Below are positions 18,918-49,484 of a DNA stretch of 64,000 bases, one piece after another. Both the position numbers and the translations under genes were made by a program. Under the pieces are notes generated by a model, which made no database searches, was not told the origin of the DNA, and was given only the letters and a program-made list of their open reading frames with translations. This DNA is from Saccharopolyspora gregorii. Its GTDB lineage: Bacteria; Actinomycetota; Actinomycetes; Mycobacteriales; Pseudonocardiaceae. The first letter of the stretch is position 1; every line of letters begins with the position of its first letter. The stretch spans positions 4,650,001-4,714,000 of the forward strand of contig NZ_CP059556.1 in the NCBI RefSeq assembly GCF_024734405.1. The letters run 5' to 3'.

Positions 18918-18933
18918 TCGAAAAGGTGTTCGA
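18918..18933. promoter_or_regulatory. LexA-type SOS box (division-inhibitor side)
   Basis: TCGAAAAGGTGTTCGA matches the actinobacterial SOS consensus TCGAAC-N4-GTTCGA except at one position in the left half-site. It is 52 bases upstream of the ChiZ/DivS-like start and about 150 bases from lexA. Confidence 0.85.
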
Positions 18934-18997
18934 TCGAACCTGCGTGCGATTGTGTACCAGCAGCGCCGGAAAAGGCCAGAGCCGCGGCCAAATTAAC

Positions 18998-19013
18998 TCG
19001 AACAGGTGTTTGA
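18998..19013. promoter_or_regulatory. LexA-type SOS box (lexA side)
   Basis: TCGAACAGGTGTTTGA matches TCGAAC-N4-GTTCGA with one mismatch. It overlaps the -35 element of the lexA promoter at 19010, so bound LexA would block its own transcription. Confidence 0.88.
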
Positions 19014-19038
19014 TCTTCCACTTCAGCCCGTCTACTGT
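19010..19038 (+). promoter_or_regulatory. lexA promoter
   Basis: -35 TTGATC at 19010-19015 and -10 TACTGT at 19033-19038 with an exact 17-base spacer. The predicted start of transcription is about 40 bases before the GTG start codon. Confidence 0.7.
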
Positions 19039-19086
19039 GGAAATCGGAGTCACGAGCAGTCCCGTTCACGAGGACAGGAGGCAGTG

Positions 19087-19872
19087 GTGGTCAGCAACAC
19101 GACCGAATCGATCAACGGCGAACTCGGCGGCACGTCCGGCGACGCCGGGTCGGCGAACGGTTCTCGCGGCGCGGAGGCGATCGTGACCGACATCAAGGGC
19201 GGCATCGCGGCGGAGTCGACGAGCGCCCCGGCGGTCCCCGAGCAGCCCGGTACCGACGAGCTCAGCGACCGGCAGCTCAAGGTGCTCGAGGCGATCCGCA
19301 GCTGGATGCGCGAGCACGGCTACCCGCCGAGCGTGCGGGAGATCGGCGACGCGGTGGGCCTGACGTCCACCTCGTCCGTCGCCTACCAGCTGCGGGTGCT
19401 GGAGCGGAAGGGCTTCTTGCGGCGCGACCCGCACCGCCCGCGCACGGTCGGCGTGCTGGTGGCCGATTCCGAGCAGACCGAGCTCGCCGGGCGCCCCAAG
19501 CCCGCCTACGTCCCGGTGGTGGGCCGGATCGCCGCGGGCGGCCCGATCCTCGCCGAGGAATCGGTCGAGGACGTCTTCCCGCTGCCGAAGGAGATCGTCG
19601 GCGAGGGCTCGCTGTTCCTGCTCCAGGTGGTCGGCGACTCGATGACCGACCTGGCCATCACCGACGGCGACTGGGTGGCGGTGCGCCAGCAGCCGGACGC
19701 CGAGAACGGCGACGTGGTAGCGGCGATGATCGATGGCGAGGCCACGGTCAAGACCTTCAAGCGGACCGACGAGCACGTCTGGCTGGTGCCGCACAACGAG
19801 GCCTACCAGCCGATCTTGGGCGACGACGCGACGATCCTCGGCAAGGTGGTCGCGGTGCTGCGCCGGCTCTGA
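19087..19872 (+). CDS. lexA: SOS repressor LexA
   Basis: Master repressor of the DNA-damage response, 261 residues. An unusually long Ser/Gly/Ala-rich leader (about 55 residues) precedes the winged-helix domain ([16 protein letters not shown], residues 63-78). The self-cleavage site is Ala150-Gly151 in GRIAAGG. The catalytic pair is Ser185 (GDSM) and Lys222 (TVKTF). GTG 19087 lies 5 bases after GGAGG; GTG 19084 is also possible, and later starts would remove part of the leader. The gene is divergent from the ChiZ/DivS-like gene with two SOS boxes between them. Confidence 0.95.
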
Positions 19873-40794: not shown

Positions 40795-41838
<1,044 letters not shown>

Positions 41839-41988
41839 CGGGGGTCCACCTCGGTCAAGTCGGACTTCGTCGTGTGCGCACGACGCTACGGGTTGGGACC
41901 GACACTCCGGTGGATGCCCTGGCCACCCGGTCGCCCGTTCTCCGGCGACGGGGCCCGGTCGAACACCGAGGTCCGGTCCGCGCATCCG

Positions 41989-42011
41989 ATCATAGGCGAA
42001 CGGATGTTCGA
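41989..42011 (-). promoter_or_regulatory. recA promoter with LexA-type SOS box
   Basis: The 16-mer GCGAACGGATGTTCGA at 41996-42011 has a perfect CGAAC-N4-GTTCG core. Just downstream on the minus strand is a consensus-like -10 TATGAT (41989-41994). The box lies over the -35 to -10 spacer, so LexA would block polymerase directly. Confidence 0.85.
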
Positions 42012-42061
42012 TCACCGGGCCGACACGCCAACCTCGTCACCCTTGCGTGTGAAGAACGGGT

Positions 42062-42479: not shown

Positions 42480-47069
<4,590 letters not shown>

Positions 47070-47205
47070 TCACCCGTCGGATCGTGGCGGGCGGCGGAGC
47101 CGGCGAGGCGACCGCTGCGGTCCCGCCGGCCGAGCCCCGCGCGGGAAGGCGGGCGGGACGGTTCCGCCGCCTGCCCCGCCGCGCGGGACGAGCCCGCGCA
47201 CGCGG

Positions 47206-47988
47206 TCATCGCGTCGCCAGGCGGAGCAGTCCCCAGAGCTGGGCCACGGCGTCCTGGTCCCCCGATGTCGTGATCTCCCGGTCCGGCAGCCGTCCCCACA
47301 GCCACAGGTAGAGCGCTTCCGGGTCGCCGCCGAGCACCGCGTCCGCGGACACGTGCGCGCCGGGACCGGTGCGGTGCACGACGGTGCGGTTCGGTTCGGC
47401 GTGCACCGACCAGTCGGCGCCGGTGGTGGACACGCCCAGCACGCACGGCCGGGTGGCGTGGATGCCGAGCGCGTGCAGCCGGTAGCCGAGCCACAGCCGC
47501 AGCGCCTCGTCGATCCCGTCGAGCGCCACGTCCGCGTCGATGCCGGTGCGCGGCACTCCGGCCGCGCCCTGCACGTCGACCCGGTGCACCGCCGTGGCGT
47601 GCAGCATCCGGCGGATCCAGAACCGCACCGAGTGCTCCTCCGGCCACCAGGTGGGACAGGCGTCGCCGGGTGGCCGGGTACCGAACTCGGCGAGCAGTTC
47701 GGCGAGGCGGGCGGTGAAGCGGCCGGTGACCTCGCGCAGGCTCGCCGGATCGGGCACCACCCAAGCGCTCGCGTCCTGCTCGGAGGCCCCCATCCAGGTC
47801 AGCGCGTCCTCGCACTGGCCGCCGAGGAACCAGATCGTCTCGGCCACGGTCCGGCCGGAGGCGCCGGGCACGCGCGCGTCCGGGTGCACGTCGTGGGTGG
47901 CGGCGGTGAGCAGCTGCCCTTCCACCCCGATGAGCTCCAGCATCCGGCCGGTGTCGATCGAGAGGTCCGCTGGCGGGCGCAGGGTCAT
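47206..47988 (-). CDS. DinB-fold (TIGR03083, mycothiol-dependent isomerase-like) protein with degenerate metal site
   Basis: A 260-residue protein resembling the TIGR03083 / mycothiol-dependent maleylpyruvate isomerase group. The N-terminal four-helix DinB-like bundle covers about 15-165 and a C-terminal domain covers 175-260. Family members bind metal through an early His and a HE-x3-H element. Here the first His region reads TIWFLGGQ and the second reads HATAVHRVD, so two of the three expected ligands appear lost (His to non-His, Glu to Ala). Catalysis is therefore doubtful. ATG 47988 overlaps the stop of the upstream HEPN gene (ATGA). The operon has a LexA-type box at its promoter. Confidence 0.8.
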   Translation of the reverse strand: MTLRPPADLSIDTGRMLELIGVEGQLLTAATHDVHPDARVPGASGRTVAETIWFLGGQCEDALTWMGASEQDASAWVVPDPASLREVTGRFTARLAELLAEFGTRPPGDACPTWWPEEHSVRFWIRRMLHATAVHRVDVQGAAGVPRTGIDADVALDGIDEALRLWLGYRLHALGIHATRPCVLGVSTTGADWSVHAEPNRTVVHRTGPGAHVSADAVLGGDPEALYLWLWGRLPDREITTSGDQDAVAQLWGLLRLATR

Positions 47989-48521
47989 CGGGCGGCTCCG
48001 GACACGCCGCGTTCGACGACGCCGACGAACTCGGTGGCGTGCCGCAGGCAGATCTCGGCTTCGCCGGGGCTGATCCCGGGACTGCCCGCCTCGGCCGCGG
48101 CGCGGCGCAGCGAGCCCGCGGTGAAGTGGGCGGCCCATTCGCGCAGTTCGGGGGCGACCTCGGTGAGCTGGAGCCACACGCTGCCGGAGAGCCGGGCGCG
48201 GTGCCGCCAGGACCGGGCGAGGACGACCGCGGTCGCCGCCCGCAGCGCCGCGAGGTGCGCGAACACGTAGCGCTCGGCGGCCTTGGTGGAGTCCTGCGCG
48301 TCGAGCAGACACCCCTTGGCCTGCGCCAGCAGGGAACGAGCACCCGCGGGCGCGGGCGGGGCGGTCACCGGCAGCCAGTCGTCGCCGTCCTTGCGCCGGT
48401 CGCCGCGACGCGCCGGGTTCGGCTCGCACCGCCGGCGCAGCGGCGCGTCGGCCGGGCGCCGCTGCGCCGGGATGGGCAGCGGTCCGCGCCGGTACCGGGA
48501 GGTGGGCAGGTGCTGGGACAT
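47985..48521 (-). CDS. SAV_6107-type HEPN-domain protein
   Basis: A 178-residue protein with an Arg/Pro-rich N-terminal ~50 residues and a C-terminal all-helical domain (SLLAQAKGCLLDAQDSTKAAERYVFAHLAALRAA...) like the actinobacterial SAV_6107 HEPN family. An RYVFAH stretch fits the Rx4H spacing seen in HEPN nucleases, but it sits in an early helix, so RNase activity is not supported. GGAG lies about 8 bases before ATG 48521. The gene is followed with a 4-base overlap by the DinB-fold gene. About 200 bases upstream lie a strong promoter and a perfect LexA-type palindrome. Function unknown. Confidence 0.8.
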   Translation of the reverse strand: MSQHLPTSRYRRGPLPIPAQRRPADAPLRRRCEPNPARRGDRRKDGDDWLPVTAPPAPAGARSLLAQAKGCLLDAQDSTKAAERYVFAHLAALRAATAVVLARSWRHRARLSGSVWLQLTEVAPELREWAAHFTAGSLRRAAAEAGSPGISPGEAEICLRHATEFVGVVERGVSGAAR

Positions 48522-48708
48522 CGGTGTTCTCCGCTCGGTCACGACGGTGCCGGTCCGGAGCCGGAGCGCGCCGGACCGCGGTGGGACGTGGTGAGCCGGG
48601 GGGAAGCCGGCCGTCCGGTGACGAGGTGCTTCCCCCACCCCGCCACCGGACGTGACGTGCGAACCGAAGTCCCGCGAGTCCGGTACCCGTGGCGCGGATC
48701 CGACGGAC

Positions 48709-48724
48709 TCGAACCTCAGTTCGA
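48709..48724. promoter_or_regulatory. Perfect LexA-type SOS box upstream of the HEPN/DinB-fold operon
   Basis: TCGAACCTCAGTTCGA is an exact TCGAAC-N4-GTTCGA palindrome, better than the boxes of lexA or recA here. It lies 8 bases downstream of the minus-strand -10, at the expected transcription start. Confidence 0.85.
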
Positions 48725-48732
48725 CTGGCTCC

Positions 48733-48761
48733 AGACTAGACCGGCGCGGCGGCGCGCTCAA
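48733..48761 (-). promoter_or_regulatory. Promoter of the HEPN/DinB-fold operon
   Basis: On the minus strand, -35 TTGAGC (48756-48761) and -10 TAGTCT (48733-48738) are spaced by exactly 17 bases. Confidence 0.7.
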
Positions 48762-48908
48762 GGACCGAGCCGTAGATCACCTGTTCGAGTCACGTCCAGC
48801 GCGCCCCGCCCACCAGCACCGACACCGGAACCCCTGCGCACCGAGCCCGGCGCCGCCGAGCAGGACCGCACACCACCGGGCCTTGCCCGACCCTCTAGTG
48901 TTCGGCTC

Positions 48909-49484
48909 GTGACAGCCGCGCCCTCACCGCACATCGACCGCATCGTCGAGCTGACCGCCGACCAGCTCAGGGCACGCCTGGCCGAAGCGCTACAGGTCTA
49001 CGTGGACGCGATGGGCTACCCGCCGTCCACCGCGCAGCAGCGCGCCCCCATGTGGTCGGCGCACATGATGCGGGCGGGCTGGCGCTGCGTGGCCGCGTTC
49101 GACCAGCAGGACGAGCTCGTCGGCATCGGCTACGGCTACCTGGGCGTGCCCGGGCAGTGGTGGCACGAGCAGGTGTTCCGCGGCATGCTCACCGTCACCC
49201 CGCGCGCCGAGGCCGAGCAGTGGATGCGGGACTACTTCGAACTCACCGAGCTGCACGTGCGCCCGGACAGCCAGGGCGGCGGGCTCGGCGAGACGCTGCT
49301 GCGCAGGCTGCTCGACGGGGCGCCCGGCAACGCCGTGCTGCTGTCCACGCCGGAGGGCCCGACCCGGGCGTGGAAGCTGTACCGACGGGTCGGTTTCGGC
49401 GACGTCCTGCGCCACTACCGGTTCACCGGCGACCCGCGCCCGTTCGCGGTCCTGGGCCGCAGCCTTCCCCTGGAGACCGCCTGA
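48909..49484 (+). CDS. GNAT-family acetyltransferase (Rv2170-like)
   Basis: A 191-residue GCN5-related N-acetyltransferase. The acetyl-CoA loop is SQGGGLGETLL near residue 120, and the C-terminal strand segment RAWKLYRRVGFGDVLRHY is typical. GTG 48909 has no ribosome site but lies 7 bases after TAGTGT, suggesting a leaderless transcript. Its place before lppM matches M. tuberculosis Rv2170. Substrate unknown. Confidence 0.85.
   Translation: MTAAPSPHIDRIVELTADQLRARLAEALQVYVDAMGYPPSTAQQRAPMWSAHMMRAGWRCVAAFDQQDELVGIGYGYLGVPGQWWHEQVFRGMLTVTPRAEAEQWMRDYFELTELHVRPDSQGGGLGETLLRRLLDGAPGNAVLLSTPEGPTRAWKLYRRVGFGDVLRHYRFTGDPRPFAVLGRSLPLETA

Follow-up and report, generated by a model that had tools for sequence, protein, structure and literature searches.

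The 64,000-base stretch of DNA analysed here (the window; positions 4,650,001-4,714,000 of a 6,344,421-base contig of the 6.34-Mb Saccharopolyspora gregorii genome) carries adjacent genes for a HEPN protein (P0001) and a DinB-fold protein of the MDMPI type (P0002), preceded by promoter-like elements, a LexA-type (SOS) box and two predicted leader hairpins, H1 and H2 (Table 1). An initial annotation of the locus had described a TTGAGC-17-TAGTCT promoter with a perfect palindrome 8 bases downstream of its -10 element, two overlapping genes facing it and a box better than those of lexA and recA in the same window. All of this was recovered. The promoter elements lie on the minus strand, facing the HEPN gene, with 17 bases between -35 and -10 and 8 bases between -10 and the perfect box. 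The two open reading frames (ORFs) overlap by four base pairs (ATGA), so their translation is likely coupled. The operon site is perfect, and the sites at lexA (three boxes in front of the gene, at 18918-19013) and recA (one site) each carry one mismatch.

Table 1. Features of the HEPN-MDMPI locus, with the lexA and recA genes of the same window (window coordinates).
Feature	Coordinates	Strand	Basis or remark
MDMPI_N/MDMPI_C (DinB-fold) protein P0002, 260 aa	47206..47988	-	Pfam, predicted structure
HEPN_SAV_6107 protein P0001, 178 aa	47985..48521	-	Pfam PF18726
Leader hairpin H2, loop part CUUCCCC at 48600-48606, complementary to the H1 loop	48595..48611	-	predicted loop contact
Leader hairpin H1, 17-bp stem, loop GGGGAAG at 48629-48635	48612..48652	-	
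LexA-type (SOS) box, perfect, TCGAAC-N4-GTTCGA, TCGAACTGAGGTTCGA	48709..48724	.	sequence and conservation
-10-like element TAGTCT	48733..48738	-	sequence; pattern in relatives
-35-like element TTGAGC	48756..48761	-	sequence; pattern in relatives
Second, imperfect LexA-like site TCGAACAGGTGATCTA	48773..48788	-	64 bp upstream of the perfect box
Divergent GNAT acetyltransferase	48909..49484	+	shares the intergenic region
lexA	19006-19872		in window
recA	40795-42015		in window

LexA-type sites are enriched in the window and in the genome. Allowing up to two mismatches, we counted 8 sites in the window where 2.5 are expected, and none of 100 shuffles gave as many. In the whole genome, two sites are perfect and 40 deviate at no more than one position, compared with 8 for the reversed pattern. 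The genome's other perfect box, in locus L149, precedes imuB (IMS family) by about 1.7 kb, and dnaE2 comes after imuB; an ORF between this box and imuB gave no informative Pfam match and, judged by eye, may be imuA'. The palindrome of the HEPN operon is not a tRNA T-arm, because there is no tRNA within the window.

Conservation of the box in relatives carries the case for LexA control. We read 51 loci from an order-level sample, in which 52 of 60 genomes (that of S. gregorii included) encode the HEPN family and one partial match (G048) was left out, and 60 further loci from 32 families, taken from a class-wide sample in which 142 of 197 genomes have the gene; together they form a set of 111. 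The control genome of Corynebacterium glutamicum likewise encodes the family. Within 1.5 kb upstream, the order-level loci had a perfect box in 46 cases, a box with one mismatch in four and one with two mismatches in the last, and the class-wide loci a perfect box in 45 cases, one mismatch in nine, two in three and no box in three. With the limit set at 1 kb, the 111 loci divided into 90 with a perfect box and 13, five, two and one with one, two, three and four mismatches, respectively. Thus, a box with at most one mismatch lies within 1 kb upstream in 103 of 111 loci; in an equally long control stretch downstream, none of 109 loci has a site with fewer than two mismatches. Furthermore, in the 50 loci of relatives that were scanned throughout (778,736 bp), all 46 perfect sites, which belong to 45 loci (one has two), fall within the kilobase upstream of the HEPN domain and none outside it, and none of 179 permuted half-sites makes a perfect palindrome in these upstream kilobases. 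A search with P0001 found one named relative, Saccharopolyspora sp. NFXS83.

The position of the box is also that of an operator. A strict sigma-70 scan did not find the promoter, and a looser pattern (TTGN / TAnnnT, ending 2-14 nt before the box) was present at 64 of the 91 perfect-box loci, where base shuffles predict 0.4, and at 29 of the 31 such loci within the taxonomic family of the window's genome. Conservation across the class at a promoter-like position supports the proposal of the initial annotation that LexA governs these genes, and we regard LexA control of the operon as very probable.

The imperfect site upstream of the perfect box may be a second LexA site. Its sequence, TCGAACAGGTGATCTA, is identical and identically spaced in all six loci of the genus and recurs with one base changed (TCGAACAGGTGAGCTA) in three loci from other genera; a similar pair of sites, 65 bp apart, is found in G257, a genome in which no HEPN gene was found. 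Such a site may serve the divergent GNAT gene or allow cooperative binding of LexA. The promoters of seven relatives (L058, L065, L067, L072, L073, L075 and L078) carry, upstream of the -10 element, motifs like TTGTCGGTGG, which we take to resemble the PafBC (RecA-NDp) motif; these suggest dual control in some genera.

The function of the HEPN protein has to be read largely from the company that its gene keeps. P0001 matches PF18726 well above the cut-off (E 2.2e-24; 86.3 bits against 27.2) and its predicted fold is that of a HEPN protein. PDB sequence searches with the HEPN and MDMPI proteins gave no match up to E 1. The family is single-copy in the 142 class genomes that have it, except for one genome with a second, below-cut-off match. 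Outside the window's family, a translesion polymerase lies downstream of the HEPN gene in at least 50 of 79 loci; the count is a lower bound because the class-wide loci extend no more than about 3.5 kb past the gene and because L137, counted as a miss, has ImuB. The arrangements include DUF6504-HEPN-DnaE2, HEPN-methyltransferase-DinB-DUF3040 and HEPN-(ImuA'?)-ImuB-DnaE2. DnaE2 follows HEPN immediately in 26 of the 79 loci, and DUF6504 precedes HEPN in 26 of 79. On the strength of this neighbourhood, of the co-regulation and of the single copy, the HEPN protein could be a helper of translesion synthesis, a proposal for which we see an even balance of probability. All 32 family loci also have, no more than 3.2 kb upstream of HEPN and on the opposite strand, a relative of the divergent GNAT gene. 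A gene for an Lhr-type helicase (1529 aa, window 42480-47069), on the opposite strand, ends about 140 bp from the end of the operon, and a relative of it is present on the locus in 25 of 32 family loci.

The second gene of the operon encodes a protein that matches MDMPI_C (E 2.4e-8; 35.0 against a cut-off of 29.5) and MDMPI_N (E 7.6e-6; 27.1 against 24.2) and falls under the cut-off of NCBIfam TIGR03083 (33.5 against 50). Its structural model is confident (predicted local distance difference test, pLDDT, 90.9) and was matched by Foldseek to 2nsf with a template-modelling (TM) score of 0.60 by query length; alkylsulfatases and sterol-carrier proteins are also among the Foldseek rows, as is 8fx9. 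An MDMPI gene lies directly downstream of HEPN in 31 of 32 loci of the window's family, as against 0 of 79 elsewhere. In one locus outside the family (L128), an MDMPI-like gene lies 0.7 kb upstream of HEPN. We examined five family genomes without a detectable HEPN gene (L151-L154 and L164), chosen for having the leader hairpin (G010 and G260, with neither HEPN nor a hairpin match, were left out), and in all five the box, H1 and the MDMPI gene stand in a row; four of the boxes are perfect and one has one mismatch. L151 has a short ORF where HEPN would be. Because MDMPI is kept where HEPN was not found, it would appear to be a second, independent SOS product. The initial annotation had suggested that the HEPN and DinB-fold genes could be an uncharacterised damage-response module. 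The damage-response part of that view agrees with the conserved box, its promoter-like position and the translesion neighbours, and the pairing holds only in the window's family, so that "HEPN + DinB-fold" is probably not an ancestral module.

A DinB-fold partner invites another reading, in which both proteins are detoxifiers of genotoxic stress, of the thiol-transferase type, and HEPN merely rides along with the polymerases because both are SOS genes. The relatives of MDMPI include mycothiol-dependent enzymes (2nsf). We aligned P0002 at a putative metal site of His, Glu and His, which we take to be the ligands of the Corynebacterium glutamicum enzyme; an H52A entry (2nsg) is among the Foldseek structures listed. 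Counted by eye, the first His is present in 24 and the Glu in 22 of 29 aligned rows. The protein of the window has Phe54 and Ala131 at these two positions and keeps His135, which speaks against a detoxifier of this type; in this genus MDMPI is perhaps no longer a metalloenzyme. In Mycobacterium smegmatis, SiwR mediates the induction of other DinB-superfamily genes under genotoxic stress (PMC10693628). The HEPN gene stands directly before DnaE2 in more of the outside loci (26 of 79) than riding along would predict. We consider that the detoxifier explanation is unlikely.

HEPN domains are also found in toxins, and the operon could conceivably encode an SOS-inducible toxin, with a HEPN ribonuclease released after damage and MDMPI as its antitoxin, by analogy with HepT/MntA. 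The partner in the window is an MDMPI protein rather than an MNT nucleotidyltransferase. It does not lie directly downstream of HEPN in any of the 79 loci outside the family, and it is kept without a detectable HEPN in the five family genomes described above; the single copy and conserved neighbour of HEPN likewise speak against a toxin. The evidence on a catalytic R-x4-6-H motif is mixed. The R-x4-H motif at 127-132 of P0001 is not conserved (His in 8 of 110 sequences), and R84-x4-H89 is fairly conserved (R in 98 and H in 76 of 110), so that loss of catalysis by HEPN is not proven. In HepT, the catalytic motif is found close to the C-terminal helix, whereas R84-x4-H89 belongs to helix 2. SAV_6107, of the HEPN-M family, is given as actinobacterial and without a catalytic motif in the relevant table row of PMC3710099. 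On the partner and the retention pattern, we judge the toxin-antitoxin explanation very unlikely.

The transcript that starts at this promoter would begin with a structured leader. Using the loop GGGGAAG as the search key in the order-level loci (stems of 7 to 23 pairs by script), we found H1 between the box and the start codon in 38 of 51 loci, 20-196 nt behind the LexA box, and we recognised it by eye in 13 of the 60 class-wide loci. RNAalifold folded 35 sequences into an H1 of 14 pairs, 13 of which have compensatory changes. With the structures given in advance, double-changed cells numbered 34 in the family-type alignment (8.9 in shuffles) and 71 in the wider-type alignment (23.9 in shuffles), and the covariation score was above all 500 shuffles in both; the observed values were reached by none of the 500 shuffles for four of five measures in the family type and for all five in the wider type. 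Sliding the pairing partners removed most of the covariation signal. On the coding strand, G-U cells outnumber A-C cells (32:4 in alignment A2, 20:4 in A5 and 26:4 in A3), which suggests that H1 is an RNA of that strand. The RNA alignments leave out L035 and L037 (same contig) and L040; A2 and A4 also leave out L044. That H1 is a structured RNA is, on this comparative evidence, highly probable.

The invariant part of the element is the loop of H1, and its complement follows nearby. A CUUCC[CU]C motif occurs within 92 nt after H1 in 35 of 51 H1 loci, where block shuffles predict 0.94, and in the aligned cases it makes up the loop of H2. The stem of this second hairpin covaries, with changes on both sides in five of six pairs (wider type) and in three of six (family type). 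Because this complementary sequence follows H1 and sits in the H2 loop, a loop-loop (kissing) contact of 7 bp between the two hairpins is likely. The contact is near-invariant (one position changes from G-C to G-U in three rows of A5) and therefore has no covariation of its own; alignments A1, A3 and A5 contain only loci selected for a downstream CUUCC[CU]C or CUCCCCA, so that loop pairing there is by selection. H2 can outlast H1, as L059 (G024) has no H1 and keeps an H2-like sequence, GCCGGCTTCCCCACGGC, directly behind the box.

The G-rich H1 loop could instead be the target of an RNA acting in trans, such as 6C RNA, whose C-rich loops would pair with it. This genome has a 6C RNA with C-rich loops, and in C. 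glutamicum 6C RNA is cited as rising about two-fold on mitomycin C (PMC6789036). Inspected by eye, the loops of the 6C RNA in this genome are runs of C without the CUUC that the invariant GAAG would need, and a complementary sequence is available in cis at 35 of the 51 H1 loci. We therefore reject 6C RNA as the exact partner of the H1 loop and find it very improbable that H1 is in general the target of such a trans-acting RNA; a 6C-like partner is possible for loci without H2, and would account only for the G-run. Slightly more improbable still is that H1 is a DNA element (a cruciform or protein-binding palindrome) and not an RNA, a reading suggested by its place near the promoter, 20-196 nt behind the box, in the 38 order-level loci and countered by the G-U excess on the coding strand (32:4 and 20:4) and by the loop being the invariant part.

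Model searches place the element mostly in front of HEPN genes. The genome of S. gregorii gave one match. Run against 60 family genomes, model R1 gave 50 matches: 42 were found 109-1000 nt before the HEPN domain, three at other places in HEPN-bearing genomes and five in genomes without HEPN. The wider model R2, run against the 197 class genomes, gave 24 matches, of which 16 precede HEPN, as do 14 of the 15 best-scoring ones. Of the three R1 matches elsewhere, the one in G022 (L163) falls in an imuB operon, in the leader after a perfect box; an H2-like hairpin with the loop GCTTCCCCA follows that box as well, so that this leader RNA may also occur outside the HEPN operon. The imuB leader of S. 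gregorii itself gave a weak R1 match (L149 781-850, E 0.095). In G031, R1 found H1 before an unknown gene (L158, G031:C38:172432-172503); a box with one mismatch starts 22 nt ahead of the hairpin. The match in G268 has no box with up to two mismatches and looks like chance. The best-scoring R2 match not upstream of HEPN (L155, G102:C15:172954-173025) is an H1-like hairpin before an unidentified gene and has no box with fewer than two mismatches. A known RNA family was rejected for the leader: Rfam had no match at E up to 1 in window positions 47000-49000 and none to the hairpins of L060, L066, L113 and L118, for which a single 19-nt sub-threshold match fell on another stretch.

Several observations weigh against the interpretation of the locus as a LexA-controlled operon with a structured leader and a polymerase helper. 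The loci share ancestry and their counts are not independent events. In a Streptomyces-like genus (g72), for which ten extra loci were added outside the 111 because it had stood out, a box with at most one mismatch is present in 0 of 14 loci; four of these were already within the 111, and adding the other ten lowers the total to 103 of 121. Eight of the 14 (L107, L108, L167, L168, L170, L171, L172 and L175) have a two-mismatch site at -272 to -293, which in seven reads CCGAACN4GATCGA and could be a relic or changed LexA site. The genus is probably Streptomyces, with chaplins in 14 of 14 genomes and a chaplin match in 0 of 14 control genomes. As for the leader, H1 is absent from 13 of 51 order-level loci and turned up in no more than 13 of the 60 class-wide ones, 16 of 51 H1 loci have no complementary motif, the measure of further pair types was reached by 83 of 500 shuffles in the family type, and the G-U to A-C cells of H2 (0:2 in A3, 6:3 in A5) are little informative. 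Taken as a whole, the leader of the window has a predicted fold only a little better than that of shuffles (z -1.54; 14 of 200 were at least as good), so that the case for it rests on comparison and not on energy. For the HEPN protein, the fairly conserved R84-x4-H89 is a point against a non-catalytic helper, a translesion polymerase lies beside the gene in 0 of 32 loci of the window's family, and 29 of 79 outside loci show neither a translesion polymerase nor MDMPI, although many reach only about 3.5 kb downstream. Lastly, hhalign placed DUF6504 against the C-terminal end of ImuB without significance (P 0.21); we do not claim that DUF6504 is ImuB-C, plausible as this is.

Taken together, we favour, with somewhat better than even confidence, a LexA-repressed SOS operon with a structured leader and a HEPN protein that assists polymerases. 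In the undamaged cell, the promoter would be blocked by LexA bound to the perfect box that closely follows the -10 element, and perhaps also to the imperfect site upstream. After damage, RecA would inactivate LexA and the operon would be transcribed. The RNA would start with the structured leader, made up of H1 and, in the window, of an H2 whose loop complements that of H1, and would go on to encode the HEPN protein and the MDMPI/DinB-fold protein coupled to it. The HEPN protein would assist the SOS translesion polymerases (DnaE2, ImuB or DinB), probably in a non-catalytic role; in the window's family, its gene stands apart from dnaE2 and has the MDMPI partner, which would act on its own. As a cis-acting RNA, the leader would probably tune expression post-transcriptionally, once the promoter has been released. 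A bolder version, in which HEPN is an overlooked subunit of the SOS mutasome (DUF6504-HEPN-DnaE2) and the leader a new class of kissing hairpins that ties error-prone repair to a second signal besides LexA, is tentative and rather doubtful.

If the favoured interpretation is true, the inventory of actinobacterial translesion synthesis would need revision to take in an SOS-linked HEPN protein, often encoded beside error-prone polymerases, and the SOS response would acquire a further, post-transcriptional level of control through a structured leader placed directly after LexA promoters. In mycobacteria, induced mutagenesis through DnaE2 is investigated as an origin of drug resistance (PMC10421592). 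The family may have been overlooked, being apparently absent from a genus (g38) that is probably Mycobacterium and having a degraded or lost box in the Streptomyces-like genus. None of nine listed g38 genomes yielded a HEPN gene; their PE-family matches number 1 to 106 per genome (at least 72 in three of nine), one or two such matches also occur in four of five sister-genus genomes, and the E. coli control matched too. Among the papers listed, none linked HEPN_SAV_6107 to SOS or translesion synthesis, with subscription work such as that on the C. glutamicum LexA regulon little covered, and the literature searched yielded no paper on DUF6504. The LexA box, the HEPN protein and the mutasome genes are parts of known kinds; their combination, and the RNA, are undescribed as far as we searched.

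Comparison with known systems places these parts in context. The LexA regulon of Streptomyces venezuelae (PMC9380542) has the same class of box, with lexA, recA, dnaE2 and dinP among its targets; its Table 1 of selected targets contains no HEPN gene, and in the Streptomyces-like genomes that we read the HEPN box is degraded or gone. The variants of the ImuA-ImuB-DnaE2 mutasome with DnaE2B (PMC12926913) likewise have small accessory genes beside dnaE2, and one group, exemplified by Arthrobacter alpinus, is "linked only to ImuB-C". Our DUF6504-HEPN-DnaE2 loci may be this group plus one unreported gene; HEPN has no occurrence in that article, and here it stands between the small upstream gene and dnaE2. 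The SOS-associated ImuB-C and SRAP families (PMC3765255, in whose main text HEPN does not occur) were found by the same type of neighbourhood argument. The DinB-superfamily genes of M. smegmatis are also DinB-fold and induced by genotoxic stress, yet PMC10693628 describes them as activated by the WYL regulator SiwR and not controlled by LexA, and as belonging to the DinB_2/DUF664 families and not to MDMPI. The mycothiol-dependent maleylpyruvate isomerase (2nsf) has the same predicted fold over most of the P0002 chain (TM 0.60), whereas P0002 has other residues in place of the putative metal-site His and Glu. Finally, P0001 belongs to the HEPN-M (SAV_6107) family, whose table row in PMC3710099 is without gene context; to this row, the loci described here add a probable setting in the SOS response and beside the translesion polymerases.

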